Positions 1 through 64,000 of a DNA stretch of 64,000 bases are shown here, piece after piece (within the stretch, counting starts at the first letter, position 1; every line of letters starts with the position of its first letter). Made by a program: the position numbers and the translations under genes. The DNA comes from a virus. The stretch lies in IMG/VR virus record IMGVR_UViG_3300045141_000181, positions 1-64,000 of that record, one strand, 5' to 3'. Below the pieces are notes generated by a model. That model made no database searches. It worked only from the letters and a program-made list of their open reading frames with translations, and was not told the DNA's origin.

Positions 1-961
1 AGGGATTGGACCCATATTGCAAACAATCCCCGGCCGCTGGCGGGCTGCCGATCAGATACGCCATCGCCAATGTGCTTGATCCATTGCCGAACTGATACGT
101 GTTCGACCCGGTATCGTAGGCGATTGCCCCCGCAGCAGTTGGTGCGGCAGCGAGGGACGATGGGACAGTTAGGGCGGTAGACGCCGCAAAGCTGTATGCA
201 AATGCTCCGAACGTAGCGGCAGAGTCGGTGTATACCGTGGTAGAGAACTGTTGCGGCTTAGTCAGCGACGATTGCCCCTGAATCGATGAGGGAGACACCC
301 ATATAGCGACCTGCCCACTGCTGGGCGTCCCTGAACTCGTGACGTTTCCGCCGCCCGCAGGCGTTGCCCATGTCCCATCGCCGCGCCAGAATGTACTGGT
401 CGACGCTCCTGACCCGCTGGCTAGATTGGACACCGGCAAATTGCCGGATACATCTGAAGACAGGCTGACCGCGCTCCAAGTGGGCGCACCGGCCGCTCCG
501 TGCAGCACGGTAGTTGTGGTGCCTAGGGATAATCCCCCGAACGCGCCCGAGTTATTAAACTGCAATGCGCCATTTGCTCCTGCCGGACTTCCGCCACCAC
601 CGCCGCCGCCAGCCTGCGCCGTCCAGACGTTGGTGGCAGTACAGCCATACAGATTCGAGCCGGGAATCTGGGCGGTATTAAAGAACACCATCCCGACTGA
701 GCACGTGCTGGGATTCGTCGGTCCATTCGGTATCTGAAACTTTGCCGTTACGCTCAGTCCCGGTAGCGGACTATTCCCTGACAGAAACAGATCGAGAGAG
801 ACAAAGTTCTGATTGAGAGGGATATTCCAGTTAGGATCATGGGCATTGGGCAAATTCAGCCCAATATTCGGCGTGGTCTGCGCAAGCACCGCACCGCACG
901 CTGCGAGCGTAAGCACGCACGCTTTCATAACGCGCGCTAGGCGCAAAGGCAGACTATTCAT
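1..961 (-). CDS. Tail-fibre-like protein with signal peptide (3' end outside window)
   Basis: The frame is open from an ATG at 961 to the left edge, giving 320 residues without a stop. It begins with a basic segment and a hydrophobic core ending [10 protein letters not shown], a Sec signal that could also be read as a lipobox (LAAC). A fibre-type N-terminal segment follows ([18 protein letters not shown]), then a Gly-rich linker and the motif [12 protein letters not shown], which recurs in phage tail-fibre and baseplate proteins. It is the last gene visible in the late operon. Receptor-binding fibre is inferred from the motif and position. The export signal is at odds with a cytoplasmically assembled virion protein. 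Confidence 0.7.
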
Positions 962-984
962 TTTTGGGGTCCTGAAAAAGTGGT

Positions 985-1584
985 TTAGTTCTGAATCCAG
1001 AAACTGGTGGGCGGCTCAGTGGTCATAGTGAAGCCACCATTATGCGTGGTGCTGCAGTGTAGATAATCGCCAACAGCCATATGCTCAGAGAACGACACCT
1101 GGTTGGTAGTGAAGGCTATGCTCGTGATTACATTGGGCGCAATAGCAACTTCTGTATCAACCCCTCCAACGTTATGAAAGATTCTTACCTCGAAGAACCC
1201 GCTGGATGTGGTGTCGGCAGACTTGAATTGACATGAGCCGGTGTAGTTTCCAGCAACCGCCGCAATAAATCGTTCCGGATTTACCGTGTTCGAATGCGTG
1301 ATCGCTGAGCCGGTATTGTTGGCATTGTTTGTGTCGAATGACAAATCAGTATCGGTACTGTCTGGTATGACTTGCCCCGTTGACTGTGTCGCCTTTATCC
1401 ACGTCTTGGCACAGGACCCAGCAATCAATTGGCTACTGGAGTTGCTTCCTAGGCACGCTTGACTGGCAGGAACTGACGCGCCGTTGATAGTCGTGGCGTT
1501 CCCAGACGAGCCGCCTGCGGCTGGAAACTGCGTGATCTGCGCGTAGGCGAGTAGCGCGATGAATGATAAGGCTATGAGTCGCAT
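985..1584 (-). CDS. Secreted C1q/TNF-like jelly-roll protein, probable adhesin or fibre tip
   Basis: The start is taken at 1584 (199 aa) because an upstream ATG at 1629 would run into the preceding gene, which stops at 1592. Residues 1-15 ([15 protein letters not shown]) form a short signal peptide. The C-terminal half alternates beta-strand patterns such as [28 protein letters not shown] and [15 protein letters not shown], resembling C1q/TNF-like jelly-roll domains found at phage fibre tips and in bacterial adhesins. The middle is rich in Ser, Thr, Asn and Gly. It sits between two other signal-peptide proteins. The fold is inferred from pattern only. Confidence 0.6.
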
Positions 1585-1591
1585 GATTGGC

Positions 1592-2005
1592 CTAGTTGGT
1601 GAAAACGAATTCATAGGTGAGTCCGGCACCGCTCGCCTGCACGGTTATCCCGCTTTGCGCGAGCACGCCGAACGGCGCATTGAATACCACGTCCGTACCG
1701 GCCGCGATCACTTGCGCATCGAGCGGCAACGGTTGGGGCGATCCCTGTGCGTCCTTGATCGTGACCGTGACGCTGCTGCCACCGGTAGGATTGTGTAACC
1801 AGATGCCGATGATGTGGGCCGTGTGAGCCGTTACGACAGTTGATGTCTGCGGCATCACCTGTGAAACAAACTCTAATGGACCTCCAAACCCGAAGGAGTT
1901 ACCCTGCGGTGGCCATTGCCCATTACGGTTAATGATTGTCGGCGGGGCGGCCAACAGTCCGCAAGCACATAGACCTACGGCCAGCAGATACAACTTTCGC
2001 TTCAT
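1592..2005 (-). CDS. Small secreted beta-rich protein
   Basis: 137 aa starting MKRKLYLLAVGLCACGLLAA, a clear Sec-type signal sequence, followed by a beta-rich body with phrases such as HIIGIWLHNPTGGSSVTVTI. I do not recognise a family. It lies in the receptor-binding end of the late operon with 7 bp to the next gene. It may be a fibre-associated or surface protein; the signal peptide is the only firm functional statement. Confidence 0.55.
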   Translation of the reverse strand: MKRKLYLLAVGLCACGLLAAPPTIINRNGQWPPQGNSFGFGGPLEFVSQVMPQTSTVVTAHTAHIIGIWLHNPTGGSSVTVTIKDAQGSPQPLPLDAQVIAAGTDVVFNAPFGVLAQSGITVQASGAGLTYEFVFTN

Positions 2006-2033
2006 GATTTGCTCCAGATGAGGATTGGTGAGA

Positions 2034-2657
2034 CTAGAAACCGGACGGGGCGCTAAAATCTTCTACCGGCGCGGGCGGCGGTGCGCCTTGATACAGCCGC
2101 GCTCTCAAGACCCTACGTGGCGGCACGATGGCCACACGTCCACCGGGCGGCGTTACGGCGCGCGTAGCGGCGATGGTATACGGCAGGCTGGCCGGGGATG
2201 TCGCCGTGCTTTGGACCTCAACGCCTTCGGGAGAATGCGCTGTGACTACCGGCGCATCGGGAGGCAGTTGGCTCTTGTCTGGACTCCCCATCCCGAACTG
2301 CGTGCTGCCCAGTATTTCAGGTAATCGATTCTTGCGCGCTGCGGAGTGAATTGCAGCTTTCTTTATTTGCCCTGGATCGTAAGCGTATACATTGCCGTAG
2401 GAGTCACTCGTGATCGCCACTCCGGGCGGATAGCGCTGCGGCGCGGGCGTGCCTTTGGGCAGCATTACAACTTTACGCAGACCCTGACCCAATTGCGCGA
2501 GTTGCGTGGCAATTGTAGCCGGATGTTCGGGAACGGTGGCCGTTGCTGCCGTCGGAGGCAGCGGGGTGGTTGCGGTCACTCGCTGCACATCCGACGGCTC
2601 TGGCGGTTCCTTCTGCTCCAGCGGTTGCGAATCGACAATATCCCAACCGGATATCAT
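2034..2657 (-). CDS. Hypothetical Pro/Thr-rich protein of the tail operon
   Basis: 207 aa. The ATG at 2657 overlaps the stop of the upstream ejection-type gene in an ATGA junction, so the two are translationally coupled. The N-terminal 60 residues and the C-terminus are rich in Pro, Thr and Ala and probably disordered, around a short ordered centre (GVAITSDSYGNVYAYDPG). No family recognised. Position suggests a virion or virion-assembly protein. Confidence 0.55.
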   Translation of the reverse strand: MISGWDIVDSQPLEQKEPPEPSDVQRVTATTPLPPTAATATVPEHPATIATQLAQLGQGLRKVVMLPKGTPAPQRYPPGVAITSDSYGNVYAYDPGQIKKAAIHSAARKNRLPEILGSTQFGMGSPDKSQLPPDAPVVTAHSPEGVEVQSTATSPASLPYTIAATRAVTPPGGRVAIVPPRRVLRARLYQGAPPPAPVEDFSAPSGF

Positions 2658-4048
2658 TGCTGTCCGTCCACTTGGGTTATGGTGCCGTTCTCGTCTTTTC
2701 GGATGGTCAGGCCATTCCTGAATTTGTAGGTTCCCGGCGCTAGATTGGCCGTCACGTCAGGCGGCGGCGTCATGGCGGCAGCACCAAACCGGATTACGTT
2801 CTGTGGAATATGCGGCGCAACTGCAGCGGTCGCTTTTCCCAACTTCGTAGCCGCTGCGCGGCTGAGCGCAATACCGAGCTTCGATTTGACCTCGGGACTC
2901 TCCAGCGCCATGCGCAAGTAGTGCGCCGCCGCAATCGCCGTTCCCGTGCCGATACCGCCCTCTACGTGCCCAGTTCCCGCCCCCGCCGCAGCAGCCGCAA
3001 TCGCCGCGAAATAGGGGGTAATGCGCTTGTTTCCCTCGCGCACCACGAACGTACTCAGCGCCCGGTCTAGATCTATGAGGCTGCCTTCATTCTGGTTGAG
3101 CGATCCGATTAGCGGATACGCCTGCTCCAGTTCTTTGCGTAGCGCGTCCGCTAGAACCTGTTTGGCCTCGGTCTTCATCGGGACCGGTTCGCCCGTCCAT
3201 GCCTTCGGTGTCTCCCTGCGAACCTCATCATACAGAGCCTTCTTGGTGGTTTGCGCTTCCGGCCCGTTGAAGTTACCCCCCATTCCTTGTGGCGCGCCCT
3301 GAATTCCGCCGTGCCTGTTTAGGAAATTCTTCTCGACTTCGTCGATGGCGTTGATGTAGGACGGGTCGCCGGAACCCGCCGACCATTTCACGCGCAGATC
3401 ATTCAGCCCCTGGACGATTTTCTGCGGATCAATCTTTTTGTTCGGGTCCTGATGAATGATGTCTGTAATCTGATCATTCAGCGCTTCCCATGCTTGATGC
3501 GCTTGATTCTTTCCGGCTTCGCTTACCGGGATACGATTCTTCAGCCCAGCATCCACCACACTATTCGCATAGTCGATACCCTTGGACGGCGCAGGCATCA
3601 CCGAAGATTGATACAACTGCCTAGGATCTAGATAGCGCCCGAATGCCTTCCCGATGGCCGAAGTGATGAACCGCCCAGTGCCTTCGGATAGCCCCTGCCC
3701 GAGCGCATCCAATCCGACATTCTTGCCGAACTCCGCGAACGATTTGGGAGCTTCCGGAGATCCCAGCGCCACGTCCGAACCCTGCTTAATCGCCGATCCA
3801 GCCGCGCCACCCGCGCCCGCATAGAGCATTGCGGCAGGTATTCCAACTTCCGGCGCTAGAAGACTCCCGACCAAGCCACCCGCCGCTGGCAAATAGCTCG
3901 CCATGCGTTCAGGCAGGTCACTCGGTAGTGTCGGACTCACGTCGCTGTTGTGCGGCAGCAACGCTGGTGCTTGGTATTTCGCAAACGGATCACCAGCGGC
4001 ATCTGGTTGCGCCGGTTGCTGATACTTTGCAAATGGATCGTCAGCCAT
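2654..4048 (-). CDS. Probable internal virion / DNA-ejection protein 1
   Basis: 464 aa. The N-terminus contains a duplicated DPFAKYQ motif (residues about 5 and 21), followed by an Ala/Gly-rich amphipathic segment (residues about 50-90) and a long helical middle. Such low-complexity, Ala-rich proteins downstream of the tail nozzle gene are typical of podovirus ejection proteins, which leave the capsid and span the envelope during DNA entry. It starts directly after the stop of the upstream gene. The family is inferred from order and composition; no enzymatic motif was seen. Confidence 0.55.
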   Translation of the reverse strand: MADDPFAKYQQPAQPDAAGDPFAKYQAPALLPHNSDVSPTLPSDLPERMASYLPAAGGLVGSLLAPEVGIPAAMLYAGAGGAAGSAIKQGSDVALGSPEAPKSFAEFGKNVGLDALGQGLSEGTGRFITSAIGKAFGRYLDPRQLYQSSVMPAPSKGIDYANSVVDAGLKNRIPVSEAGKNQAHQAWEALNDQITDIIHQDPNKKIDPQKIVQGLNDLRVKWSAGSGDPSYINAIDEVEKNFLNRHGGIQGAPQGMGGNFNGPEAQTTKKALYDEVRRETPKAWTGEPVPMKTEAKQVLADALRKELEQAYPLIGSLNQNEGSLIDLDRALSTFVVREGNKRITPYFAAIAAAAAGAGTGHVEGGIGTGTAIAAAHYLRMALESPEVKSKLGIALSRAAATKLGKATAAVAPHIPQNVIRFGAAAMTPPPDVTANLAPGTYKFRNGLTIRKDENGTITQVDGQQ

Positions 4049-5707
4049 CTATTTGACTTTCGCGCCCGGGTGATCCTTTATGAACTGGTCCGCTTGGCTG
4101 GCGTGGATCTTGCCGGTTCGTCCGTCCGGCAGTGTCGCCGTAACCATTGCGTCTTGCGGGACCGCCTGCGCCGCTTCTCCCGGCCCAGTACCAGATTGGC
4201 CGCTACTGCTTGGCAAAGAGCCGCGCTTTTGTAGTCTCTGCCGGGTGGCATTGTCAAAATACTTGCCGGTAGGGAAGTCCTGATTGGTGGCCGCCCTGTA
4301 GCGCTGGTAAATTCCCTCAAACTGACTGTCCATCAACTGATTGACTTCGTCGAGAGCATCCTTACGCACGCTCTCTATCGGGGAGAGCAGGTTGGCCTCT
4401 GATCTCTTGGCTTGGTCTTGGGTCAGTACGCCGCCGCTCACGAGCTTTCCGAACTCCTCCGCGATTGCGTTCGAAACGATATGCAATCGCCGCTGAGCAC
4501 CAGTCGTATTCGTTCCGAGCAGCGGCGAGAACCCTAGTGCTGATGAATTCTTATCGAACCGATCCAGATGGCCCATGATGCGCGTGATGGTGCCAAGATT
4601 CTGCGCGTCTTTGCTGTTCTGGAAATTCTTCTTCCCGAGATAGCGCCCTTCTGTATACGTTGGGTCGATCTGGTAAACCCAGTCCATCGTCTGGTTGTAG
4701 TTTTTGCTACGTGGCGATGGTGCTGGAATGTCGCCGTTCGCAATTGCCTTGAGTCGCGGTAGATCTGATGCGGGTGGCGGCGTACTGACTTCCGCCCCAT
4801 TCCCCGCTGCCGGGGTTCTCATTTCGTGCGCCACTCGCACCTTGTCCGCTTGCTGCGCCCTCAGCGCTTTCGCAGGATCACCGCCGTTAGCGTCCAGATA
4901 GGATTGCCATTCGCTGGTGTTGTGTTCCTTGTTGTTGACTCCTACCGCCGCCTGATATAGCGAATTAGGTACGGCAGTTCCCGGCTTGACACCCATCACG
5001 CTTGCAAGGCCCGGATCCGTGACTACCATCGTCTTTTCTGGCTTCTCGTACTTGCCAGCCGCAACCCTGACGAGTTCAGTGGCGGTCGACGACGGGATCT
5101 TGCTTCCCACTTTCAGGATGTCTCCGCTGGCAGCCGCCATTTCCGGCGTAACTTCGACCAATGGCGGCGTGCGGCCCAAACCCTCCATGTAATCCGCGTG
5201 GGCCTTCTTGTAGGCGATATCCGCCGCAGTCCCGGCATTCTTCCACCACGCTTGATTGCGGGCGGTTTCTGTCTCTGCGGCTTGCTGAAGCGGCGCGACG
5301 CGCGATTTCCATTCGGCCAACTTCTGACCGTAACCCGGCGCGAGGATGTTCTGACTGAGTTCGTTCAGGTCGATCGGGTTGCGTGTTCGGCCTGCGGCAT
5401 TGGAATACCCGGCAGCGGCACCCGCACCCGCGCCTGCGAGTCTCTGCCACCACTTCGGTTCCGGTAGGACCGGCTGTTTAGCAAGCTCTGCTGCGAGTGC
5501 TTGGTTAGCCGGTCCCACGACGGGCGGGGGACCACCGGAATCCGTTGGCGGCGGTGCGATCGGAGGCGCGGCCACAGCGACAGGAGCGGGACCGACTGGC
5601 AACGCAGCGCCCGGATCAGGGACGCCTCCGCGCATTTGCGCAAGCTCCTCGTCGGTCATCGGAGGAAGCAAGTCCTCGTCGTCGCCGATGTAATTGACGC
5701 TAGCCAC
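4049..5707 (-). CDS. Probable internal virion / DNA-ejection protein 2
   Basis: 552 aa, starting with GTG at 5707, overlapping the previous stop by 8 nt and preceded by AAGGGG at good spacing. The N-terminus is acidic (DDEDLLPPMTDEELAQM), then comes a Pro/Ala-rich stretch and a large mostly helical body. A C-terminal part (VTATLPDGRTGKIHASQADQ) looks like a small beta domain with a DGR turn. No lytic transglycosylase motif was seen. Its place between two other Ala-rich proteins supports a role in the ejected inner core. Confidence 0.55.
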   Translation of the reverse strand: MASVNYIGDDEDLLPPMTDEELAQMRGGVPDPGAALPVGPAPVAVAAPPIAPPPTDSGGPPPVVGPANQALAAELAKQPVLPEPKWWQRLAGAGAGAAAGYSNAAGRTRNPIDLNELSQNILAPGYGQKLAEWKSRVAPLQQAAETETARNQAWWKNAGTAADIAYKKAHADYMEGLGRTPPLVEVTPEMAAASGDILKVGSKIPSSTATELVRVAAGKYEKPEKTMVVTDPGLASVMGVKPGTAVPNSLYQAAVGVNNKEHNTSEWQSYLDANGGDPAKALRAQQADKVRVAHEMRTPAAGNGAEVSTPPPASDLPRLKAIANGDIPAPSPRSKNYNQTMDWVYQIDPTYTEGRYLGKKNFQNSKDAQNLGTITRIMGHLDRFDKNSSALGFSPLLGTNTTGAQRRLHIVSNAIAEEFGKLVSGGVLTQDQAKRSEANLLSPIESVRKDALDEVNQLMDSQFEGIYQRYRAATNQDFPTGKYFDNATRQRLQKRGSLPSSSGQSGTGPGEAAQAVPQDAMVTATLPDGRTGKIHASQADQFIKDHPGAKVK

Positions 5708-6797
5708 GTTGCCCCTTATACGGCTGTCTGGTCTTGGCCGCTGGCATCTTCGCCATGCTTGGGCGGGTCTTTGCGCCAGCGCGGTAAGACAGCGGCACTA
5801 CCGCTTCGTTCTTTTGCAGCCGCACTTCCGTAGGCTGAGTGAAGATCCCGCCTCTGCCCTGCGGCATGCCTCCGTCTTCGAGATAGTGGTGAGCAATATT
5901 CCCCGCCGCTTCGCCGATCTCCTGATACGGCGTGACCTTGCTCCACGGCTGTTGAGTCATGGGTTGCTGTGGCTGTTGTGCGGCCATCTTGAGCCGCTGC
6001 AGCCATGAAGTAGGCGCGGATACTGGAGGCGCGCTCTCAGCAATCGCCACGTCCGGATACAGTTCATATCCACCCGATGGCGTTAGGTCTATCCCGCCGT
6101 CTTCGTAATAGTTGTTCGGCCCGCTCGGGCCGCTTTTCAAATCTATAATCTTTTCGGGACCAGCCTCGCCAACTACCGCAGGAGTTCCTCCACTTTCTAT
6201 TCCACCGTCTCCCAATTTCTTTAATCCGCCAAGACCACCAGCAACTGCGCCCACTATCTTGTCGAACGTGGAAGGCAATTGCGCTGCAGTCGTGGTGGCC
6301 TGCGCTTGTCTGCCGTACTCGTTCTGGGCATTCTGGTTCTGCTCCTGCTGCAATCCGCCGTAGTAGTTCAGCGCCTGATCCTGCTGTCCGAGCCGCGCAT
6401 TGCCGATAGTCTGCTCGCGTTGCGCTGCCGTATTCGATGCCGCAATGCGGGCCTGCGTCATGGCATCCCCAGCCGCCGCACCACCTTGCTGGGCCGCGCG
6501 GGCTCGATACGTGGCTAGCGCTGCGGGATTTCCTCCCGCTGCGGCTGCCGCCCGTTCCGCCGCTCCAACTGCGGCTTGATTTTGGACCCCGGCAGAGATA
6601 CCCGCGCCTGTGACGATTTGCTGTTGCTGTTCCGGTGTGAGTTCAATCCCAGCCGTTTCCGCTGCGTTATAACCGCCTAGACCCTGCGCAAGCGGGTCCT
6701 CAATTCCACCCAGATAGTCCTGCGTGGCGTTGCGCTGCTGCTCGGCGAGCTGCGCGCGCTGCTTTTCCTGATCGCTTAAATTAGTAAGACTTGCCAT
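5700..6797 (-). CDS. Probable internal virion / DNA-ejection protein 3
   Basis: 365 aa with AAAGGA 5 nt before the ATG. Residues 1-180 are Gln/Ala-rich and helical (repeated AAERAAAAAGG, QQEQNQNAQN). The second half contains VVGEAGPEKIID and VRLQKNEAVVPLSYR, short motifs that recur in tape-measure and internal virion proteins (GEAGPE...; ...EAVVPL). It overlaps the next gene. With the two following genes it forms a three-gene set like podoviral ejection proteins. Confidence 0.6.
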   Translation of the reverse strand: MASLTNLSDQEKQRAQLAEQQRNATQDYLGGIEDPLAQGLGGYNAAETAGIELTPEQQQQIVTGAGISAGVQNQAAVGAAERAAAAAGGNPAALATYRARAAQQGGAAAGDAMTQARIAASNTAAQREQTIGNARLGQQDQALNYYGGLQQEQNQNAQNEYGRQAQATTTAAQLPSTFDKIVGAVAGGLGGLKKLGDGGIESGGTPAVVGEAGPEKIIDLKSGPSGPNNYYEDGGIDLTPSGGYELYPDVAIAESAPPVSAPTSWLQRLKMAAQQPQQPMTQQPWSKVTPYQEIGEAAGNIAHHYLEDGGMPQGRGGIFTQPTEVRLQKNEAVVPLSYRAGAKTRPSMAKMPAAKTRQPYKGQRG

Positions 6798-7073: not shown

Positions 7074-9434
7074 CTACCGGTTGAAAAGACCCTGTTTTTC
7101 GTAGGGCTTCAGCATTGACAACTCCCACCAATCCCCTACTGCGTTTGTGCCGACGCGAATCGTATAGTTCTCGATCTGCGAAATGTCAAACTTCAGCCCG
7201 TACATGATGCCAGGATCCGGAGTGAGCGTTGCCGGGACTCCTGCGGTAGATTGCAATTGCGGATTCACGCTGATCACGTGACCAGGACCATAGACCCAGC
7301 AAATCGCCGTTCCGCTTCCGCGTATCCACACATCGCAATAACCGACGCGAATCATGTTCGAAATGATCTCGTTCCCGCGCGCTAGGCCGCACTCCCAAAA
7401 ACTCTCGATGGCATGGCCTTGGTCGGCGCGCACCGTAGCGTCGAAATGCGCCATGCTCCCTGCGGCAGAAGGACCAATCCACAAATTAGATTGATTCGTG
7501 CTGTCTTCCTTGACTACGCCTAGCGCACTAAACACTGCCGGATTAAACACATCGATTCCGATATCCACCGTGTTGTACGTCAGTCCATTCGTGTAGTCGA
7601 TCACGAACATCGCATTTGGCTCAGTGACGCCCACTCCGAACGGACACCCAACATACAACTTGTGCGCTACCGTGTCATCGGCCATCTGAATTGCATAGGC
7701 CGCTTTCCAGTTGACGGTTGCCCATTCGTCCTGCAGATATGTCAGTGGCAATTCAGCGTATGACCCAGTGAAAAGATATACTCCCGATTCCGTAGTGATC
7801 CACGCATAATTCCCGCCCGTTCGATAGCAAACGCAATTCGCAAATGGAGCACCGAGCGCATCAGATACCCGGACCGGGGGTGCCCACGTCGCGGGAATGT
7901 CATTGTTGTCGGTCACGTACGCCGTCCAGCGGTCGCCCGTCAGGATAAGCGCCGTGCCTCCAGGCATTCCGAAGGCATAACCGAACTTGCGCTGGGATGG
8001 CATTAGGACCTGATTGCGGTCCTGCGCGATCGACTGCGGATTATTGATGTCTGAGGCGTATAGAATCGTGCCGTTCCCGTAGAGCATCCGCAGACCGTAA
8101 TTGCCGACAAACGAAGGATTGAATGGGCCAGCCCCTAGATCGTCCTGAGACAGAAGCAGGAATTGATCGTTAGCCGAATCAGCGGATGCCGCGAGATCCG
8201 CATCCGAGATATTTGCGGTAAACGGTAGATCGATCGCGTTGTTAAACGGTACTGGCTGCTCGCCTACTGATCCGGTCGTCAAGTCAGTTGGCACAAAGTA
8301 CCAATTCGCCGGATTATCCGCGCGGGTCATGATCAGAAACAGCATCGCCCCGCTGCCGCCGTCTGCAAGCGGAGGGAGAGTCACAGTTATGTCGATCCTG
8401 CGGTTGTCCGACGAAAGCGTAACCGACATCGGCGTACTGAAGATCGTAGTCGTTGGTCGGCCAGCATATCCAGTACGATTCTGATAAACGAAGCCAAGGA
8501 GATGCGTCCCAATGGTGCAGAATCCCGCTGCGGCATCGACGGCCGTAAAGTCCGTCGGTGTGATTGGACCGCGAAACGCCAGATCTACAGTATTGCCGTC
8601 CGTCACGCGCGTCTGAATTACGCCATTGCCGAGCGTATCGTATGCGGCAACGTACAGCCACTTGTCCAGCGGCGCGAAGCTTGGTTCCCGCGCGGTCGAT
8701 GTGTCCGCAACGATGGTAAGAATGTTTCCGTCAGACTGGCGATAGCGCTTGATGGCTCCCGGCGATACGCCCTCTTGATACATCACCAGATTTTGTTCGC
8801 TCGTGGCGGGGCTGTTGATGTAGAAGATTCCGTATGCCTGAATCGTATTGGCGGCCGAATCTGTCGCGACCACTTGCAGCAGATGAGCGCCCGCCGCTAG
8901 TCCGGAAGCATCTACCGTCAGCGCCCAGCCGAAATTAGGGGAGCCAGCCATTCCGGGCCTTGCTGCGGCTACGTCGGTGCGCGGAATGCCGATTGTCACA
9001 GTCCCGGCTGGCGCGATGCCGTCTATTACCATCGTCACGCCCGTAACCGTATTGACCGCTCCAGCGACTGCCCATCCGAAGAAATTGATATTTAGTACGC
9101 CACCGACCGGAGTGTAGACAAACGTGTGTGATGGCTCCGGATTGTCGATCTGGATCTCGAAATCTCCGTCAAGATTGTGATAGTTCCCGCCCGGTGCGCC
9201 TACAAGATTCTGGATTCCCGGCTCGATCCAGTTGTAAATACCGGTCACTTTAGCCGACACTGTTGGATTGATCGCGATGGTTCCAGGGCGCATACCGGAC
9301 ACTCCCGGAGAGATCCGCGCATTCTGCATTGCAGAGGCGCGCGCGGGCGTTCCCTTACGTTTCTGCGCAGTGGTCGACCATTGGCCCCTCGGCGTAGTGA
9401 TTTCCTTGCCGGGGGCAAATCCGCTGATTGACAT
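7074..9434 (-). CDS. Tail nozzle / tail tubular protein B-like, with Ig-like insertion
   Basis: 786 aa. It begins with a conserved-looking N-terminus (GMRPGTIAINPT...GIYNWIEPG), then an Ig-like domain at about residues 95-205, then a long beta-propeller-like region with repeated strands (ILTGDRWTAYVTDN, YAWITTESGVYLFTG). Its size, the propeller-like middle and its place between connector and ejection genes match podoviral tail nozzle proteins (T7 gp12 / P22 gp10 type). The start has no Shine-Dalgarno; the preceding bases on the coding strand are pyrimidine-rich, so coupling or hairpin-controlled initiation is possible. Assigned by architecture, not by search. Confidence 0.6.
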   Translation of the reverse strand: MSISGFAPGKEITTPRGQWSTTAQKRKGTPARASAMQNARISPGVSGMRPGTIAINPTVSAKVTGIYNWIEPGIQNLVGAPGGNYHNLDGDFEIQIDNPEPSHTFVYTPVGGVLNINFFGWAVAGAVNTVTGVTMVIDGIAPAGTVTIGIPRTDVAAARPGMAGSPNFGWALTVDASGLAAGAHLLQVVATDSAANTIQAYGIFYINSPATSEQNLVMYQEGVSPGAIKRYRQSDGNILTIVADTSTAREPSFAPLDKWLYVAAYDTLGNGVIQTRVTDGNTVDLAFRGPITPTDFTAVDAAAGFCTIGTHLLGFVYQNRTGYAGRPTTTIFSTPMSVTLSSDNRRIDITVTLPPLADGGSGAMLFLIMTRADNPANWYFVPTDLTTGSVGEQPVPFNNAIDLPFTANISDADLAASADSANDQFLLLSQDDLGAGPFNPSFVGNYGLRMLYGNGTILYASDINNPQSIAQDRNQVLMPSQRKFGYAFGMPGGTALILTGDRWTAYVTDNNDIPATWAPPVRVSDALGAPFANCVCYRTGGNYAWITTESGVYLFTGSYAELPLTYLQDEWATVNWKAAYAIQMADDTVAHKLYVGCPFGVGVTEPNAMFVIDYTNGLTYNTVDIGIDVFNPAVFSALGVVKEDSTNQSNLWIGPSAAGSMAHFDATVRADQGHAIESFWECGLARGNEIISNMIRVGYCDVWIRGSGTAICWVYGPGHVISVNPQLQSTAGVPATLTPDPGIMYGLKFDISQIENYTIRVGTNAVGDWWELSMLKPYEKQGLFNR

Positions 9435-14746: not shown

Positions 14747-14748
14747 TT

Positions 14749-42911: not shown

Positions 42912-43135
42912 ATCCCATATCCCTCAGAAATCTCCTTCACTTCTCTCTGCGCTGCGACTTCTCTATCGATTGCTGCATTCCTAATCGGAGTAGCGCCAAT
43001 GCGTAATTTATCCAGGAATGATAGGTAATCCTTGCGTCCGTATTCATCACCCATCCACGGCGGGCCGCCGTCATATTTGTCAAGATACGCCCTCCTGACA
43101 ATCCGCACCTCGTCTTCAATCTGATCACTTTTCAT
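42908..43135 (-). CDS. Small hypothetical protein
   Basis: 75 aa, acidic and helical (DEVRIVRRAYLDKYDGGPPW). ATGA overlap with the 330-aa gene. Function unknown. Confidence 0.45.
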   Translation of the reverse strand: MKSDQIEDEVRIVRRAYLDKYDGGPPWMGDEYGRKDYLSFLDKLRIGATPIRNAAIDREVAAQREVKEISEGYGI

Positions 43136-47620: not shown

Positions 47621-47631
47621 GTTTCCTTCCC

Positions 47632-49571: not shown

Positions 49572-49576
49572 TGGAG

Positions 49577-53699: not shown

Positions 53700-54017
53700 T
53701 TAAATAATTGCGCCCTGGACGCCAGGGATAAAGCTGAGCAGTGAAGCGCTGCCCAAGGCGATTCCAGCAACCGCCAGAGTTCCCATTGCTCCGTTACCTA
53801 CCGCGCCCATATCGTGGTGGTGCCGATACCATGAGATCGCGCCAACCACCACCATGATTAGCGAGAGCCCATAAGCCAGAGGGCCAGCCACTTCGTTTGA
53901 TAGCCCGAAAATCGCTTCAGTGGCTACTAGCCTTCCACCACCGACAGCAAGCATGTGCGGGGCCGTTAGCAGGCTCGACAATATAAATCCAGAAGCACGT
54001 AATGCAAACTTTTTCAT
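53700..54017 (-). CDS. trbC: TrbC/VirB2 pilin
   Basis: 105 aa. Start at 54017 has AAAGGAAATTAGAG upstream and gives a signal sequence (MKKFALRASGFILSSLLTAP). Two hydrophobic segments (LAYGLSLIMVVVGAIS and GTLAVAGIALGSASLL) make the mature pilin, probably processed by TraF. Overlaps nothing; trbB ends 13 bp upstream. Confidence 0.85.
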   Translation of the reverse strand: MKKFALRASGFILSSLLTAPHMLAVGGGRLVATEAIFGLSNEVAGPLAYGLSLIMVVVGAISWYRHHHDMGAVGNGAMGTLAVAGIALGSASLLSFIPGVQGAII

Positions 54018-54030
54018 CTCTAATTTCCTT

Positions 54031-55279: not shown

Positions 55280-55462
55280 ATGAAAACTAAACAGCCCGTG
55301 AAGAAGCGTAGAGACGACGTTGAGCGAGCCCCAGTCAATATACGAAATGTTGCAAAACGAGACTGGGAGAACATAAAAGACATCGCCAAACAGGAAGGCT
55401 TGAGCCTCTGGATGGTACTCGATGAGATGTTTCATGATTGGCTTAAGAAGCACCGCCATTAG
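55280..55462 (+). CDS. Ribbon-helix-helix regulator
   Basis: 60 aa. Basic N-terminus, then VNIRNVAKRDWENIKDIAKQ and LSLWMVLDEMFHDWLKK: strand followed by two helices, as in Arc/CopG-type repressors. AAGGG lies directly before the ATG. It is divergent to trbB and could bind the shared palindrome. Its stop overlaps the convergent gene. Confidence 0.65.
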   Translation: MKTKQPVKKRRDDVERAPVNIRNVAKRDWENIKDIAKQEGLSLWMVLDEMFHDWLKKHRH

Positions 55463-55773
55463 GCTGCTCGTTTCCCCGTCAATTCCTCGATCAATCCCCG
55501 AATCACCCACTCCAGCTCCATATCAACCGCCCGCTGCGCATCCACCATCCGGCACGCATAAATCACGGTGGCGTGATTCTTCCCGCCGAAGTATCGTCCG
55601 ATCCACGGAAAGCTATTGCCGTTGATCGTTCGCATCAGGTACATCGCAATCTGGCGCGGATGCACAATCGCATGGCGTCCATCACGCCTACGCAGATCTT
55701 TCGATTCCAGCCCATAGCGGACAGCAACGGCCCGCAGTATCGCGTCTGGTGCAACGCGACGAGGCAGAGTCAC
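55459..55773 (-). CDS. Stand-alone DnaA domain IV-like protein
   Basis: 104 aa. RDGRHAIVHPRQIAMYLMRT then FPWIGRYFGGKNHATVIYAC (about residues 30-74) matches the DnaA box-binding domain of DnaA (PRQ.AMYL...; IG..FGG..H.TV..AC). No AAA+ domain. It may mark the element's origin, or compete with host DnaA. First gene of the minus-strand replication block's end. Confidence 0.8.
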   Translation of the reverse strand: MTLPRRVAPDAILRAVAVRYGLESKDLRRRDGRHAIVHPRQIAMYLMRTINGNSFPWIGRYFGGKNHATVIYACRMVDAQRAVDMELEWVIRGLIEELTGKRAA

Positions 55774-56457: not shown

Positions 56458-56620
56458 TGCCGTCCTCCAGTTCCTCCAGCGCAATCTTTTCCGACAGCCA
56501 GTCAACGTGTCCCAGCGTCGCGCCAAATCGCTCCGTGGCCGTCAGGCTTTCGTCCCGCGCGTTCTTCAGGCATAGTTCCGCTTGCTTGGCGCAGTATTCG
56601 ATGTGCTCGTCTCTAGTCAT
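56438..56620 (-). CDS. Small helical protein
   Basis: 60 aa, helical (HIEYCAKQAELCLKNARDES). Overlaps dnaB stop in an ATGA junction. Function unknown. Confidence 0.5.
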   Translation of the reverse strand: MTRDEHIEYCAKQAELCLKNARDESLTATERFGATLGHVDWLSEKIALEELEDGNAYSVA

Positions 56621-57942
56621 GCCGCTACTGGCCTTTCTTCGACCTCGTCAAATCGCGCATATCGCGAAGTGAAGATCAGATTTCCGTGTCCCTTGGGACC
56701 GCCACGCTGCTTCTTGAGTCGGATTATGAACGGCTGCACGTCGGCCTCGTCATCGTCCGTTACGCGCTCAAGGAAGATCACGTGATTCGCGTCTTGCTCG
56801 ATGCCCGACGATTCCTTCAAGTCGGTAAGCTTGCGGTTCTTTGTGTTGCCGCTTTTTTCCGGCCTGCTGAATTGAGACAGCACCATGACGGGGATATCAA
56901 AGTCTTGCGCAATCTGCTTCATCCCCCGGCTCAGACTGGCGACTTCCTCGGCGCGCGTTCCAAATCTCCCGATACCGCTCATGAGTTGCAAATAATCGAC
57001 CACTAGGAACTCAATGGGCTTGCCAATGGACCGATAGCGGTGTAGGTCCTGCCGTAGCATCGGGATCGTGATAGTCCCGGTGTCGCGATACAAAATCAGA
57101 TCCCCGAGTTCAGCGATCTTCCAGGCCGTAGCACATGCCTTGCCGCGCTCGTCTTCCTCGCCCAGCCCGATACTCAGCCGGTGCATGTTGACGCGCCCGA
57201 CTTGCCCGATGATGCGGCACAGTACCTCCTCGTTGCTCATCTCCATCGAGTAAAGCGCCGTTCTTTTGCCAGCGTGCGCCGCCGAGTAAATCGACTGCAT
57301 GGCGCATGCTGTTTTCCCTTCTCCGGTATTCGCCGCCAGCACCGTAAGCGTTTTGCGCTTAAACCGCATCCTCGACCGCAGCCAAGCGAATGGAGGCTCG
57401 ATGCCGTTCTGTGATGGCCTGATTAGGTCGTTGATGCCAACGCGCTCGATGATCTGGTCGGCCGTCTCGAAAGCTTTCTCACCCTTCGGCTGCATGCCCT
57501 CCCCGACGCGCCGTAGCTCTTCCGCCAGATCCCCAGGTGATTCGCCGCGATAGGCCCGCGATTTGATGCTCTCGACATCGCAGATCAACTTCCGCAGCAT
57601 CGCTTTTTCCCTCAAGATGCTGATGTAGTTGTCGATGTGATGAACATGAGGCAGTCCGTCATCCAACGAGACCAGATAGCTCAATCCGTCGACCGAGGCC
57701 AGTTCACCGTGGCGCTGCAATTCCTCAGCGACCGTGACGCGATCGATCTTGCCGCCCCGCTGCTGGATCTCGCCCATGCGCAGGAAAATCCGCTTATGCT
57801 TCTCAAGCGAGAAGTCAGTCTGCGCCAAGCTCGTCATGATCGCCTCGACAGGCGTTCTGGCCGGGTCCGCGCTCATCAGCGCACCGAGCACAAGTCTCTC
57901 GCAGTCCAGGTTGTCGGGTAACGGTAAGTCTTCAGTATTCAT
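56617..57942 (-). CDS. dnaB: Replicative DnaB-type helicase
   Basis: 441 aa. N-terminal DnaB domain (DNLDCERLVLGALMSADP), then the RecA-like core: TVLAANTGEGKTACAMQSIY with Walker A, RTALYSMEMSNEEV, FLVVDYLQLMSG with Walker B, MVLSQFSRPEKSG and the C-terminal FIIRLKKQRGGPKGHGNL. Full length for the family. It unwinds DNA for replication of the element. Coupled to the DUF1376 gene by a 4-bp overlap. Confidence 0.95.
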   Translation of the reverse strand: MNTEDLPLPDNLDCERLVLGALMSADPARTPVEAIMTSLAQTDFSLEKHKRIFLRMGEIQQRGGKIDRVTVAEELQRHGELASVDGLSYLVSLDDGLPHVHHIDNYISILREKAMLRKLICDVESIKSRAYRGESPGDLAEELRRVGEGMQPKGEKAFETADQIIERVGINDLIRPSQNGIEPPFAWLRSRMRFKRKTLTVLAANTGEGKTACAMQSIYSAAHAGKRTALYSMEMSNEEVLCRIIGQVGRVNMHRLSIGLGEEDERGKACATAWKIAELGDLILYRDTGTITIPMLRQDLHRYRSIGKPIEFLVVDYLQLMSGIGRFGTRAEEVASLSRGMKQIAQDFDIPVMVLSQFSRPEKSGNTKNRKLTDLKESSGIEQDANHVIFLERVTDDDEADVQPFIIRLKKQRGGPKGHGNLIFTSRYARFDEVEERPVAA

Positions 57943-58730
57943 CGCAAAAAAATCTCTCCCAGGGGTCTAGTGTCTACGGCCGGTACATCCCGTACGGGAG
58001 AGGCGCGGGCCGCGAAAAGCGTGGGCGGCTCCTGCTCGTAACGCTCCATCGTGGCCGCGAGATAGTTGCTGAGGGCCTTCGCGTACTCGCCGCCGTTTTT
58101 AGTCCAGTCCTCGGATTCTGACTTTGCTTGGTGGATGGCAACGATTTTCCGCACATATGCCGCAGTTTCATCAAGCGGCTTTCCCTCAGCAGTCACCAAC
58201 CGTTTATGCTTCAGAATCGCCACGAGCCGTTTTCTAACTTCGCTCGGGCCAATGTCGCGCCTATTCGGCGGATGGGTCTGGTGAATGTCGGTGGAGGCTT
58301 GATCGAGTACTGCCTGAAAGGGACTTAAGGGTTTATCTGAAGATGAAGACAGAAGAAGTAATGTTGAACCACCCTTGGGTAGCTGGTTGGTTTTTTGTAA
58401 CTTCTTACTTTCTGCGGAGTTACGCCCACCTGTACTAGACTTTTCGGCCCATTTCTGCTGCTTTTCGCGCTCCAACTCCAGCCTCTTGTGAACCAACCTT
58501 GTGTTGTCGGTTGCCGAGTGGCTGAAGCATTTTGTAACCACCCTTAATACGGTGCTGTCTGCACCCTTGCATAACCGTGAGAGCATGACTTCATCGGCAG
58601 GAATGCTGCCCTCTCGCCAGCAGTAGGACAGCAGCCGGATATACGCGCCTTCTTCCTCAAGGGTCATCAACTGTACTTGCTCGTCGGCAAGGTAGTCGGC
58701 AGCGTAAAACTGAAAAGCTGGAGCCTTCAT
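57939..58730 (-). CDS. DUF1376-type replication protein
   Basis: 263 aa. N-terminal PAFQFYAADYLADEQVQLMT, then LEEEGAYIRLLSYCWREGSI is the DUF1376 layout, a winged-helix-like domain found in phage replication proteins next to DnaB. A Ser/Lys-rich linker and helical C-terminus follow. Probably loads DnaB at the origin; role inferred from family and position. Confidence 0.75.
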   Translation of the reverse strand: MKAPAFQFYAADYLADEQVQLMTLEEEGAYIRLLSYCWREGSIPADEVMLSRLCKGADSTVLRVVTKCFSHSATDNTRLVHKRLELEREKQQKWAEKSSTGGRNSAESKKLQKTNQLPKGGSTLLLLSSSSDKPLSPFQAVLDQASTDIHQTHPPNRRDIGPSEVRKRLVAILKHKRLVTAEGKPLDETAAYVRKIVAIHQAKSESEDWTKNGGEYAKALSNYLAATMERYEQEPPTLFAARASPVRDVPAVDTRPLGEIFLR

Positions 58731-59422
58731 GCTGTGGCCTCCGCGTCGAACGAGAACACTTCCTGACTTAGCCGCTCGGCAGCTATTTCGCAGTAGCGCT
58801 CCTCCCGTTCAATACCCACATACGGAATGCCCAATTCATGGCACGCGTGCGCCGTAGTGCCGGAACCCATAAACGGGTCGCAGACGCTTGTTCCGCCGAA
58901 GTATTTTAGAAGCCACCGCGCATGCTGTGGCTTCCTGGGTGTTGGATGGCGCAATGTGGCGATTGCCTCGTCTGTAGCGATTTTGTTGCGGCCATTGCCA
59001 CGCGCAAACCCCTTGTCGTTTCGTGTGGCGACTATTCGCCCCGGAATTACATGAGCCCCCTCGCGCGAAGGGGGGGGCTCACCAAAGGCATAGGCCACGT
59101 CTGCCGTATAAAGCAGGCGTCCGATGTAGTTCGGGCAGGCCAGTTCCAGCCAACATACGCGAAAGAAAGCAAATCGGGCCGGAACTGCTGCCAGAAATCT
59201 AGGATCGGAATTGCATCCCAGATGGATCACTATTCGCTTGGTCTCCTTGCCGCATTTATCTAATGCCTCACCAAGAAGCGCTTGTGGGTCTTCGATGTCA
59301 AGAAAGACCGAATTAGGCCAAACGGGATCAGTGATTATGGCTTCTGCCTCGACCTGCGGCAGCACTTCCCGGCAATCGCCGTGATAGATGGTTATTCCAG
59401 CGTGCTGATAGTACGGCTTCAC
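58727..59422 (-). CDS. DNA methyltransferase with altered motif IV (DPVW)
   Basis: 231 aa. Motif IV reads TDPVWPN (residues 31-37) where N4/N6-amino methyltransferases usually have DPPY/DPPW; motif I is at the end, DPFMGSGTTAHACHELG (182-198) and YVGIEREERYCEIA, so the order is IV-I (beta-type). It probably marks element DNA. An 8-G tract (59070-59077) lies inside the coding region. No restriction partner is visible. Confidence 0.75.
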   Translation of the reverse strand: MKPYYQHAGITIYHGDCREVLPQVEAEAIITDPVWPNSVFLDIEDPQALLGEALDKCGKETKRIVIHLGCNSDPRFLAAVPARFAFFRVCWLELACPNYIGRLLYTADVAYAFGEPPPSREGAHVIPGRIVATRNDKGFARGNGRNKIATDEAIATLRHPTPRKPQHARWLLKYFGGTSVCDPFMGSGTTAHACHELGIPYVGIEREERYCEIAAERLSQEVFSFDAEATA

Positions 59423-60416: not shown

Positions 60417-60417
60417 G

Positions 60418-61491
60418 TCATTTGACCCTCCGCAACAGCGGTTTTTCAGCTCGCCCCATGCTTCGCTTCTCTCTGGCGATATCAAGGTTTTCCTTGTCCA
60501 CGATTCCGTAGCGCCGGTCGATCGACGGCGTCTTCATCCCCATAACCTTCATGCGGACGCCTTCTGGAATACCGCAGTCACGCATGCCCATGTTGGCCGA
60601 GCGCCGCAGATCATGGAAGCGCAAACCGGGGAACCCGGCACGTTTGCAAGCGCTGGCCCACGCCTTGCGGATCGTCTTCAACCGCCGCCCGTTGTGCGTA
60701 AATAGGGCCGGTTCGCCAGGGCATACCGAATCGTGATAGATCAGTTCCTCAGTGAGCAGATCCAGCATCGGCCCATCGAATATAGGGACCTCTCGCGGCT
60801 CACCATTTTTTGTCTTCCGAAGGTATATCGCCAGCCCATCCAGATTGAGGTCAGACACATCGACCGACAGCCACTCTCCCCGGCGAGCGCCAGCGTAGAA
60901 TGCGCAAGCGCTGACGGCCCTCAGGTAGCGAGGCAATTCCGGCAACAGTTTCTTCTCGAAGTCCTCGTCGCGGATGAACCCTTGGCGCACGTTGTCTTTC
61001 TCTGACTCCATCGGGAAATGCGGCAGAGTGGGGAGCGCCTTGGGGCGACGCTCCGCCAAGTCGTTCATAGCTGACCGCAGGAACGCCAATTCCCGATTGA
61101 TGGAGGTCTGACTGGTGCGCGGCTGCTTCTCGCGTTGCTCCCGGTAGTCGGTCAGCATGTCCGTTGTGATGCGTGTCAGCAACGTGTCGCCAAAGAACGG
61201 GTTGAGGTGCTTCCGGGCTTGCGATGCATAGGTCTTGTGTGTGCCGACGGCGAGCTTCTTGCGCTTCAGGAACGACTCCAGGAGTTCCGGGACAGTCAGT
61301 GTGTCCCGCCCATTGCTAAGCGTTCCAGCAGCGGCTTTCTGCTGTAATTGCAGTAACAGCTCGACAGCCTTCCCGCGATCGCTGCTGCCGGTGGCGTATT
61401 CCTTACCGTGGAACCGCACAGACCAACGCTGACCGCGCTGAAAGACTCGACCGAATCCGTACTGGCGCGTGCGTTTGCGCTTGATACGCAT
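60418..61491 (-). CDS. int: Tyrosine integrase
   Basis: 357 aa. SAM-like N-terminal binding domain (about residues 65-145) and catalytic domain with Arg in GARRGEW (201-207), His293-x-x-Arg296 in FHDLRRS and nucleophile Tyr328 in RRYGIV. The usual second His (GHKT) is Met319 (GMKT). It catalyses integration at the adjacent attP core. Start at 61491 is just before the upstream stop. Confidence 0.92.
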   Translation of the reverse strand: MRIKRKRTRQYGFGRVFQRGQRWSVRFHGKEYATGSSDRGKAVELLLQLQQKAAAGTLSNGRDTLTVPELLESFLKRKKLAVGTHKTYASQARKHLNPFFGDTLLTRITTDMLTDYREQREKQPRTSQTSINRELAFLRSAMNDLAERRPKALPTLPHFPMESEKDNVRQGFIRDEDFEKKLLPELPRYLRAVSACAFYAGARRGEWLSVDVSDLNLDGLAIYLRKTKNGEPREVPIFDGPMLDLLTEELIYHDSVCPGEPALFTHNGRRLKTIRKAWASACKRAGFPGLRFHDLRRSANMGMRDCGIPEGVRMKVMGMKTPSIDRRYGIVDKENLDIAREKRSMGRAEKPLLRRVK

Positions 61492-62136: not shown

Positions 62137-62613
62137 CTACGCCGCCTTTCCGCTAATTTTCGAGATGTCGTACCCGTAGACGCTGACGGCCAGTGCTGCC
62201 CACATATGGCTTGCGATGCCGAACGTAGGACCGGGCGCTTTGCGATTTCCGGGAGGTCCAAGCCGGTCAATCAAAGCTTCCCGCACATGTGAGTCGTTCG
62301 CTCTGGCAACCCCGCATAGATGCGTCTTGATGGTAGGTCTGGTCGCAAACTCCGGCATCGTTCGCAGATCCTTCCAGCGCTGAGTAAATCGCCCCGTCCA
62401 GAGGATCGTCTTGATGGTTGATGACCCCATCTGCGTGCCGTAGTTCTGCACCATTTCGATGAAGCAGGTCGGGTACTCCAGTTCTGCCCACGCCTTTAGT
62501 TGCCACTCTTCCAGTTCGTCATTGTCGTAGATTCCGTAGCCGATAATTCGCGCGCCGTCCCACATAACCGCTGCTGATTTATCGCTGCCGGGATCGATGC
62601 CCAGAATTGTCAT
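62137..62613 (-). CDS. RuvC-like / RNase H-fold nuclease
   Basis: 158 aa. MTILGIDPGSDKSAAVMWDG has the first catalytic Asp of the RuvC fold (D7), IEMVQNYGTQMG carries the second acidic position, and GPTFGIASHMWAALAVSVYG is a typical C-terminal block of phage RuvC-like proteins. Probable Holliday-junction resolvase helping recombination and packaging. Confidence 0.75.
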   Translation of the reverse strand: MTILGIDPGSDKSAAVMWDGARIIGYGIYDNDELEEWQLKAWAELEYPTCFIEMVQNYGTQMGSSTIKTILWTGRFTQRWKDLRTMPEFATRPTIKTHLCGVARANDSHVREALIDRLGPPGNRKAPGPTFGIASHMWAALAVSVYGYDISKISGKAA

Positions 62614-62798
62614 TTGCGTTTCTTCTCCACGGGCTTAGCCCACTCGCGGGAGAAGCCCCAACCCGGATGCGCGGCCTCGCACGGAATAATGCCAACACCC
62701 ATGCGGCGGCCGTGAGCGGGTATTTGCCCGCGCTCAGTTAGATCGACCGTCTCGGCACATACCGGACATTGAATTGCCTTTTGCTCGTCCTGTTTCAT
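62610..62798 (-). CDS. Small zinc-binding protein
   Basis: 62 aa. IQCPVCAETVDLTERGQIPA followed by a His/Cys pair is a small phage zinc-ribbon type. Overlaps both neighbours by 4 bp. Confidence 0.6.
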   Translation of the reverse strand: MKQDEQKAIQCPVCAETVDLTERGQIPAHGRRMGVGIIPCEAAHPGWGFSREWAKPVEKKRK

Positions 62799-62941
62799 CG
62801 ACGCCCTCCCAATAACTCACGCACTTTATTCAGCGCCCAGAACCATGTCGGCCCGAATCCTTCCAGTCGCGCATCCCTGATGCGGTACACGTGCCACCAG
62901 CCGGATTCGCGGCAGATTCGGTATTGGGCGGATTGCTTCAT
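62795..62941 (-). CDS. Very small Trp-rich protein
   Basis: 48 aa from ATG at 62941 to TGA at 62795. QYRICRESGWWHVYRIRDAR and PTWFWALNKVRELLGG are clearly protein-like; it is coupled to the zinc-ribbon gene by ATGA. The gene is easily missed because of its length. Function unknown. Confidence 0.6.
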   Translation of the reverse strand: MKQSAQYRICRESGWWHVYRIRDARLEGFGPTWFWALNKVRELLGGRR

Positions 62942-62942
62942 C

Positions 62943-63314
62943 TCAATCGACAAATTCAAACTCAATTCGGGTTACTTCCGTCTCTGGCGCGCAGCCCTTA
63001 TGGGATGCGCAGAAGAACTTAACGAACTCTGACGGGAATCGCAATGTAGGGTGATAGGCAAACCCTTCCTTGACGCATTCTGCTATCCCGTATCTGACAT
63101 CGTCGGTCATTCTATTAAGCGGCTCTTGAGAGGTATCTACTACTCGAATTACGGCAAGTTTGGTGATCTTCTCGCCCCTCTTTAATCCTTGACTCTTCAG
63201 AACTCCCTGAAGCAGCGTTCCCGGCTTGAGCGCCCGCCAGCCATTCCTGCGCGTAACGGTCTTCGTCCGATTCCGGATCTGTTCCCTCGTTAAAGCGAAC
63301 GATATATTTCTCAT
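62943..63314 (-). CDS. ASCH-like small protein
   Basis: 123 aa. SFALTREQIRNRTKTVTRRN then WRALKPGTLLQGVLKSQGLK and a final TEVTRIEFEFV resemble ASCH-type phage proteins (..TVTRR.GW..LKPG...). The ASCH fold binds nucleic acid; role here unknown. Confidence 0.6.
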   Translation of the reverse strand: MRNISFALTREQIRNRTKTVTRRNGWRALKPGTLLQGVLKSQGLKRGEKITKLAVIRVVDTSQEPLNRMTDDVRYGIAECVKEGFAYHPTLRFPSEFVKFFCASHKGCAPETEVTRIEFEFVD

Positions 63315-63322
63315 CTATTGCC

Positions 63323-64000
63323 CTATCGTGGAATATCCGCATCAGTAATGCTTGTCCGCTTCTCCATCTGTATTGCGGTCCAAATCTCTAGCAATGCTGG
63401 CCGTGCGCCACTGGTCTTCTCGCCGCGAAACTGATTGCTCCGCTCTACACCTTGCGCGCGCAACGCTGCGCGATAGATACTCTCCGCTTCGTTGATTCCA
63501 ATCAGCTCTTCTAGTGCTTCCTTGAGCCGCTGGAACACCTTAACCGTGGAAGCAATATCCGTCATCTCCTCACAGAGCACCAGCAACGCATCCGGCGTTA
63601 TGTCTTCCTCGGTTTCCGGCTGTGCAAACTCGCGCTTGGCCTTGATGGACTGGAACAGTAGCTTGGCTACTTCGCGCTTTTGCTCTAAGTCCAACTCGCT
63701 CGACTTGGTAACATTGAACCGCTTGATTATGCGGTCCAGTTCGGCCTTGGCATCTTCGGCTTTGAAGTACTTCGGCATCTCCATCTGCACCAGATTCGTC
63801 AGGACGACGTTGACTTGGTTTAGGCTGGCCTGTTTGATCTGCTGATTGAATCGCTCGGAATCGGATAGGTTCTCATCCACAGTGGGCGGTTCTTCACGTC
63901 GAATCTGCTGTAGTTTTCTGTCTCTTACTTCCTCTGCCGCCTGCCTGCTTCCGTTCAATCCGCTACCCTCGTTTCCGTCGTCATCCTCTGGAGCGATCCC
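63323..64000 (-). CDS. Hypothetical helical protein (5' end outside window)
   Basis: The frame is open to the right edge; an internal TTG at 63958 is unlikely to be the start since upstream codons (GIAPEDDDGNEGSG) are in frame. At least 225 aa, helical and charged (LGNQ-type patterns with QIKQASLNQVNVVLTNLVQM and TDIASTVKVFQRLKEALEEL). No family recognised. Probably a replication or recombination accessory. Confidence 0.5.
   Translation of the reverse strand, partial: GIAPEDDDGNEGSGLNGSRQAAEEVRDRKLQQIRREEPPTVDENLSDSERFNQQIKQASLNQVNVVLTNLVQMEMPKYFKAEDAKAELDRIIKRFNVTKSSELDLEQKREVAKLLFQSIKAKREFAQPETEEDITPDALLVLCEEMTDIASTVKVFQRLKEALEELIGINEAESIYRAALRAQGVERSNQFRGEKTSGARPALLEIWTAIQMEKRTSITDADIPR

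Follow-up and report, generated by a model that had tools for sequence, protein, structure and literature searches.

P1-like elements have gained mob genes or an origin of transfer (oriT) after loss of phage genes (PMC10879196), and fused phage-plasmid elements (cointegrates) are seen as phages whose function is probably impaired (PMC12977533). Phi1207.3 has been called a conjugative prophage based on conjugation-like transfer, the mechanism of which is still to be elucidated (PMC4260502). Here we describe a 64,000-nucleotide stretch of viral DNA (the window), positions 1-64,000 of the 72,812-bp IMG/VR record IMGVR_UViG_3300045141_000181, the remainder of which was also read. The window carries the virion genes of a tailed phage together with a relaxase, a type IV coupling protein (T4CP) and the genes of a type IV secretion system (T4SS). 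We consider it likely that the element is a temperate tailed phage infecting soil Acidobacteriota of the class Terriglobia, with an acquired complete conjugation module, and that it is both a phage and an integrative conjugative element (ICE).

Virion and conjugation modules

Two circular phages of the same Acidobacteriota-associated family, G001 (IMG/VR 3300036856_000059; 67,457 bp with a 127-bp terminal repeat) and G004 (IMG/VR 3300005529_000032; 70,593 bp with an 80-bp terminal repeat), each encode a tyrosine recombinase, as does the window. The large terminase subunit (TerL), portal and major capsid protein, the gene set that marks Caudoviricetes, are all present in the window. The virion block runs from 24,951 to 1,592 on the minus strand, and 16 late genes are collinear with those of G001, most of them also with those of G004. 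Amino acid identities to G001 and G004 are 81% and 76% for the capsid and 72% and 66% for TerL, respectively, and the other late genes are collinear with G001 and mostly full length. The virion genes reported in the initial annotation are thus borne out; its labels for TerL, portal, capsid and tailspike are backed by profiles, whereas ‘connector’, ‘nozzle’ and ‘ejection’ follow from position and conservation, with no profile that names them. The features are as follows (percentages are identities; values after profile names are E-values).

1..961, continuing at contig 72685-71523, minus strand: start part of a 707-amino-acid late gene (open reading frame, ORF, on the rotated circle)
1592..6797, minus strand: late genes o2-o6, including 464- and 207-amino-acid ORFs at the giant-protein site of relatives
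7074..9434, minus strand: conserved 786-amino-acid gene (earlier label ‘nozzle’) with a putative tail role; 54% to G001
9479-10096, 10129-10635 and 11545-12546, minus strand: three conserved late genes, putatively tail or connector; 11545-12546 matches a tail fiber profile (2.7e-4) and is collinear with G001
12548..14938, minus strand: tailspike, pectate-lyase-like; PF12708 1.8e-8, phrog_2234 1.9e-7
14749-15507 and 15504-15977, minus strand: two conserved late genes; 48-50% to G001
16822..18093, minus strand: major capsid protein; phrog_14242 0.0029, 81% to G001
18123..19574, minus strand: putative protein at the scaffold position, between portal and capsid; 53% to G001
19900..22272, minus strand: portal protein; phrog_156 1.5e-4, 57% to G001
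22963..24951, minus strand: TerL; phrog_2 1.1e-24, 72% to G001
28408..28971, minus strand: helix-turn-helix protein kept in relatives, candidate small terminase subunit (TerS); HTH_23 0.008, 50% to G001
32194..33280, minus strand: candidate lysis cassette (122, 92 and 132 amino acids); Rz-like spanin 0.02 (weak), 32194-32562 52% to G004, no Pfam match

The window capsid has a weak profile match of its own (2.9e-3), and eight of 10 members of its family match phrog_14242, ‘major head protein’ (best 1.3e-8). Neither INPHARED nor PLSDB contains a match to the capsid; a profile search of PDB was empty for the capsid and gave only chance matches for the portal, and the AlphaFold model of the capsid is of very low confidence (pLDDT 34).

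The transfer block (55,113 to 36,490) lies on the same strand as the virion block, between phage-type lysis-side and replication genes. Its gene order is VirB11, VirB2, VirB3, VirB4, VirB5 position, small lipoprotein, VirB6, VirB8, VirB9, VirB10, TraF, a protein without assigned function, T4CP and MobF, which we take to be the trbBCDEJKLFGI order of RP4/Ti-type systems. Pfam matches and homology (homology only for TrbJ) agree with the MobF relaxase, VirD4-type coupling protein, trb set and traF of the initial annotation.

36490..39405, minus strand: MobF relaxase-helicase, TrwC family, 971 amino acids; TrwC 1.8e-63 plus helicase, HUH histidines and Walker A present
39792..41804, minus strand: T4CP, TrwB/VirD4; PF10412 5.6e-67, Walker A
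43132..44124, minus strand: transfer-region protein without assigned function; 27% homologue at the same place in G008, a contig of a Silvibacterium metagenome-assembled genome (MAG)
44794..45336, minus strand: TraF-type pilin maturation peptidase; PF10502 0.0016, 53% to G008
45333..46625, minus strand: TrbI/VirB10; Pfam 1.9e-52
46625..47899, minus strand: TrbG/VirB9, true start probably internal; CagX 4.5e-32
47632..48345, minus strand: TrbF/VirB8; Pfam 2.6e-26
48354..49583, minus strand: TrbL/VirB6; Pfam 1.2e-21
49577..49897, minus strand: small lipoprotein at the TrbK/VirB7 position, lipobox LIGC; placed by position, homologues exist
50172..50897, minus strand: TrbJ/VirB5 position; 52% to L021-L023, no Pfam match, homology only
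50890..53382, minus strand: TrbE/VirB4 ATPase; Pfam 8.8e-6, 66-67% to Acidobacteriaceae MAGs, Walker A
53385..53687, minus strand: TrbD/VirB3; Pfam 5.7e-4, below the curated cut-off, syntenic homologues 63-64%
53700..54134, minus strand: TrbC/VirB2 pilin; Pfam 6.4e-6, below the curated cut-off, syntenic homologues 51-58%
54031..55113, minus strand: TrbB/VirB11 ATPase; Pfam 5.6e-29, 59-67% homologues, Walker A

The coupling protein, VirB2-VirB6 and VirB8-VirB11 are therefore all present, with VirB5 assigned by homology and VirB7 by position alone; no VirB1 was found in the transfer set of the window. Relaxase residues Y18, Y27, H219, H235 and H237 are invariant in the alignment. The nearest relatives of the transfer genes are on Acidobacteriaceae/Silvibacterium MAG contigs (VirB4 66-67%, others mostly 47-65%), with conserved order. 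A 21-bp repeat occurs in the transfer region at 42668-42688 (intergenic) and 43376-43396 (in a 330-amino-acid ORF) and is a possible regulatory or oriT-linked element.

Circularity and a second genome with both modules

The first and last 127 bases of the record are identical, and this exact terminal repeat therefore defines a 72,685-bp circle; such end identity is what a 127-mer assembly of a circular molecule would be expected to give. The 707-amino-acid reading frame, called on the rotated circle, crosses the closure. There are no exact direct repeats >21 bp and no inverted repeats ≥20 bp in the genome, and none of the signs of an assembly artefact (shared repeat, open ends, compositional break between modules) was seen. 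The codon-usage distance, based on samples of fifteen 60-codon blocks, is 0.79±0.13 between virion and T4SS genes, and splits inside one module give 0.76 and 0.72; the distance between the virion genes of the window and those of G001 is 1.03, and that between the T4SS genes of the window and those of G008 is 0.94. This equality of codon usage shows that the modules share their history within a single host or genome.

A MobF alignment scanned against viral contigs recovered G415; scans of viral contigs with VirB4 and DnaB recovered no relatives. G415 (IMGVR_UViG_3300005719_000013; 62,894 bp) has a 120-bp terminal repeat and forms a 62,774-bp circle. Its phage genes encode an HK97-type portal (2.3e-72), a capsid plus S78 protease, TerL (1.8e-52), TerS and head-tail adaptors, and its transfer genes encode MobF (7e-80), T4CP (1.1e-72), VirB11, VirB6, TrbI (3.2e-41) and VirB4; the transfer genes lie between terL and the capsid/portal genes, all on one strand. 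Contig G413 of another assembly, which may or may not derive from an independent sample, is 100% identical to G415 over the 47,242 bp of G413 and crosses the closure of G415. No repeat in G415 is long enough to have fused two genomes, and its two modules have equal codon usage. Like the window, G415 is a circular genome in which MobF, T4CP and T4SS genes lie among those of a phage, but it differs in its HK97-type head genes, its T4SS lineage (VirB4 23% identical over part of its length) and the T4SS position between terL and capsid/portal. G415 is thus an unrelated second case of the mix and decisive support for one element. The initial annotation had suggested looking for relatives with this combination; the unrelated G415 has it and no close relative does.

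That the virion and conjugation modules form one element, as first proposed, is strongly supported and most likely, because the circle closes and a gene spans the closure, there is no joining repeat, codon usage is equal, the trb block is flanked on either side by phage-type genes, and the unrelated circular phage G415 shows the same combination. A chimera is unlikely.

A further contig, G412 (linear, 15 kb), carries MobF and T4CP genes close to genes for TerS, TerL and capsid. In a MobF tree (quick method, long branches) the relaxase of the window clusters with that of the Silvibacterium MAG, that of G415 joins a different viral contig, and that of G412 falls among chromosomal Terriglobia loci. 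Phage capture of MobF modules has probably been repeated, because the phage-linked relaxases sit in different places of this tree. The chances seem even that conjugative phages form a recurring class that has so far gone unrecognized, in which soil-bacterial phage lineages independently captured full relaxase, coupling protein and T4SS modules and move both as virions and by mating, with the window and G415 as closed examples and G412 as a possible third.

Phage family, Terriglobia loci and other genes

The combination of phage and transfer genes is unique to the window within its own family, among ten other contigs examined; unlike the window, G001 and G004 are without MobF, TrbI or a homologue of the other window T4SS genes. 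The replication genes of G001 (VapE, YqaJ) also differ from those of the window. In the relatives a giant late-operon protein of 1600-5792 amino acids is encoded (4252-4377 in the two circular relatives), as single ORFs at 47642-60775 in G001 (L012:7642 onward; 4377 amino acids), 52542-65300 in G004 (4252) and 75120-92498 in G010 (5792). These are probably large polyvalent virion proteins; that of G001 has SNF2 helicase and Eco57I-methylase-like domains and is reminiscent of DarB of P1. At the same site the window has the 464- and 207-amino-acid ORFs, with a clear match for the second only. Relative to its relatives the window has lost ~11 kb vs. ~19 kb gained, and the circle stays near 70 kb (72.7 kb vs. 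67.3 and 70.5 kb); a packaging limit would favor such near-constant genome size.

Judged by their homologues, both modules point to Terriglobia. Distant capsid homologues (~30%) occur in 54 of 399 Terriglobia genomes (L034-L045, L060-L079), with TerL and portal homologues adjoining in the five loci read, and these loci are apparently a widespread prophage group of Acidobacteriota. MobF relaxases similar to that of the window occur in 136 of the 399 genomes (L094-L107), often several per genome. G008 and its kin have MobF, T4CP and trb/VirB genes in the same order as the window (47-67% per gene), but no virion genes matched nearby; nor did any match near G268, a Terriglobia MobF ICE with MobF, T4CP and T4SS genes as in the window. 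Among five Terriglobia MobF loci read, four have MobF and T4CP but no T4SS and are apparently mobilizable islands, and G268 also has a T4SS. Conjugative prophages were considered for these MobF/T4CP loci and rejected, as no phage head or terminase gene matched in the five. In G314 one MobF/T4CP island is tandemly duplicated, at 0.2-4.5 and 12.1-17.3 kb.

The region from 55.4 to 64.6 kb, with genes for a DnaA_C-domain protein, DnaB, DUF1376, methylase, HNH, tyrosine integrase, RuvC and ERF, is a phage-type replication block. Profiles confirm the DnaB block and the single integrase of the initial annotation (DnaB, DUF1376, methylase and one tyrosine integrase), and this one tyrosine recombinase is what an ICE or temperate phage is expected to carry.

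55459..55773, minus strand: DnaA C-terminal-domain protein; Bac_DnaA_C 4e-23 in one of 42 scanned window proteins, assigned here by sequence
56617..57942, minus strand: DnaB helicase; Pfam 3.7e-49
57939..59422, minus strand: DUF1376 replication-type protein and DNA methylase; profile matches
60418..61491, minus strand: tyrosine integrase; Pfam 4.2e-11
62137..62613, minus strand: RuvC-like Holliday junction resolvase; phrog_1770 3.8e-13
63323..64000, minus strand: ERF-family recombinase, the gene reaching contig position 64606; ERF 5.7e-21

Three HNH-type endonuclease genes (10753-11208, 16046-16747 and 24869-25585; three HNH_3 matches), 33-48% alike, are scattered through the late operon. One of the 42 scanned proteins, perhaps 27087-27458, matches the Acb2/Tad1 hairpin domain of the anti-CBASS sponge family (2.3e-17), and a 299-amino-acid protein (34736-35635) has a PEP-CTERM motif (1e-3, just under the cut-off), which is unusual for a phage.

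Alternative explanations and comparison with known elements

The expression of the two modules and the timing of each route, as we infer them, would be as follows. A complete module of MobF, VirD4/TrwB coupling protein and RP4/Ti-like trb genes would have been inserted between the lysis-side and replication genes of the phage. In the lysogen, maintained via the tyrosine integrase or as an episome, the trb apparatus would be expressed, MobF would nick oriT, and the genome would enter a neighbor as single-stranded DNA without lysis. On induction the circle would replicate (DnaB, DUF1376, ERF, RuvC), and TerL would package the genome through the portal for exit as virions.

Several results weigh against a phage that is also an ICE. 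TrwC is absent from all 10 other same-family contigs (two circular) and TrbI from all six tested, and tblastn found no homologue of the window T4SS genes in the family; the window capsid is not matched in the Acidobacteriaceae MAGs that carry the closest T4SS. A search for oriT beside the mob genes gave only weak inverted repeats, no att site was found by comparison with 8 tRNA genes of the fetched loci, and no integrated copy was found. The giant late-operon protein is cut to 671 amino acids in the window, and particle function could be altered. The MobF and T4CP of G412 are 72-91% identical to those of chromosomal mobilizable islands; G412 may be an island of this kind lying next to a prophage, and its status as a third case is ambiguous.

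Artificial joining, during assembly, of a phage to an ICE or conjugative plasmid from one and the same host fits the phage relatives without T4SS and the nearest T4SS loci without virion genes, and two joined elements of one host would likewise show equal codon usage. De Bruijn joining, however, needs shared k-mers, and the genome has no exact repeat >21 bp; with a closed circle, a gene over the closure, and the closed, unrelated G415, whose mix a second assembly reproduces, we regard this joining as highly unlikely. A conjugative element (ICE or plasmid) into which a now decaying prophage has integrated, or a phage-plasmid cointegrate of recent origin, with conjugation as the only function that still works, would account for the reduced giant protein and has precedents in described cointegrates and in phage-derived plasmids with gained mob or oriT (PMC12977533; PMC10879196). 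This too is unlikely: apart from the giant gene, the late operon keeps its collinear order with mostly full-length genes, phage-type genes flank the T4SS on both sides, genome size is within the range of the circular relatives, and there are no duplicated ends. Among the proteins scanned there is no plasmid Rep or ParA/ParB family, only DnaB, DnaA_C and a weak RHH match, so that the replication and partition genes expected of a phage-plasmid were not seen. Pili are common phage receptors, and a phage might keep a T4SS as such a receptor, for superinfection exclusion or for effector or DNA export rather than self-transfer. The oriT search, which yielded no identified site, and the lipoprotein at the TrbK-like position, which suggests exclusion, would fit. 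It is nonetheless very improbable, since the element keeps a coupling protein and a relaxase whose HUH histidines and helicase are intact, and an export-only or exclusion-only system would need neither.

Mobile elements are sorted by their route of movement, capsids or mating pores. If the phage-ICE described here has both routes, its prophage could spread without killing the host and switch routes by conditions, it could reach cells without the phage receptor and would enter as single strands, and phage and plasmid gene pools would be joined directly. The element also shows that neither conjugation nor virion genes can serve as exclusive labels for sorting metagenomic contigs.

With the MobF, TrbI and VirB4 of the window and the VirB4 of G415 as queries, no annotated phage in INPHARED (50,697 phages) showed such a system. 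The matches were partial helicases (four annotated phage records), short fecal scaffolds that are unannotated and named only ‘Bacteriophage sp.’, and one Salmonella genomic island (AB571791.1, with tra and resistance genes, filed as a phage record). Compared with open papers, with priority not proven, the window joins two known kinds of element, the temperate phage and the ICE. It differs from Phi1207.3, as the text of that paper mentions no relaxase or type IV secretion (PMC4260502). Like phage-plasmids and P1-like plasmids (PMC10879196; PMC12977533), it stands between the phage and plasmid worlds and gained conjugation functions; unlike phage-plasmids with mob or oriT, it has a full mating apparatus beside an intact-looking virion operon. 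If both routes proved to be working, and given G415, the element would deserve a class of its own.

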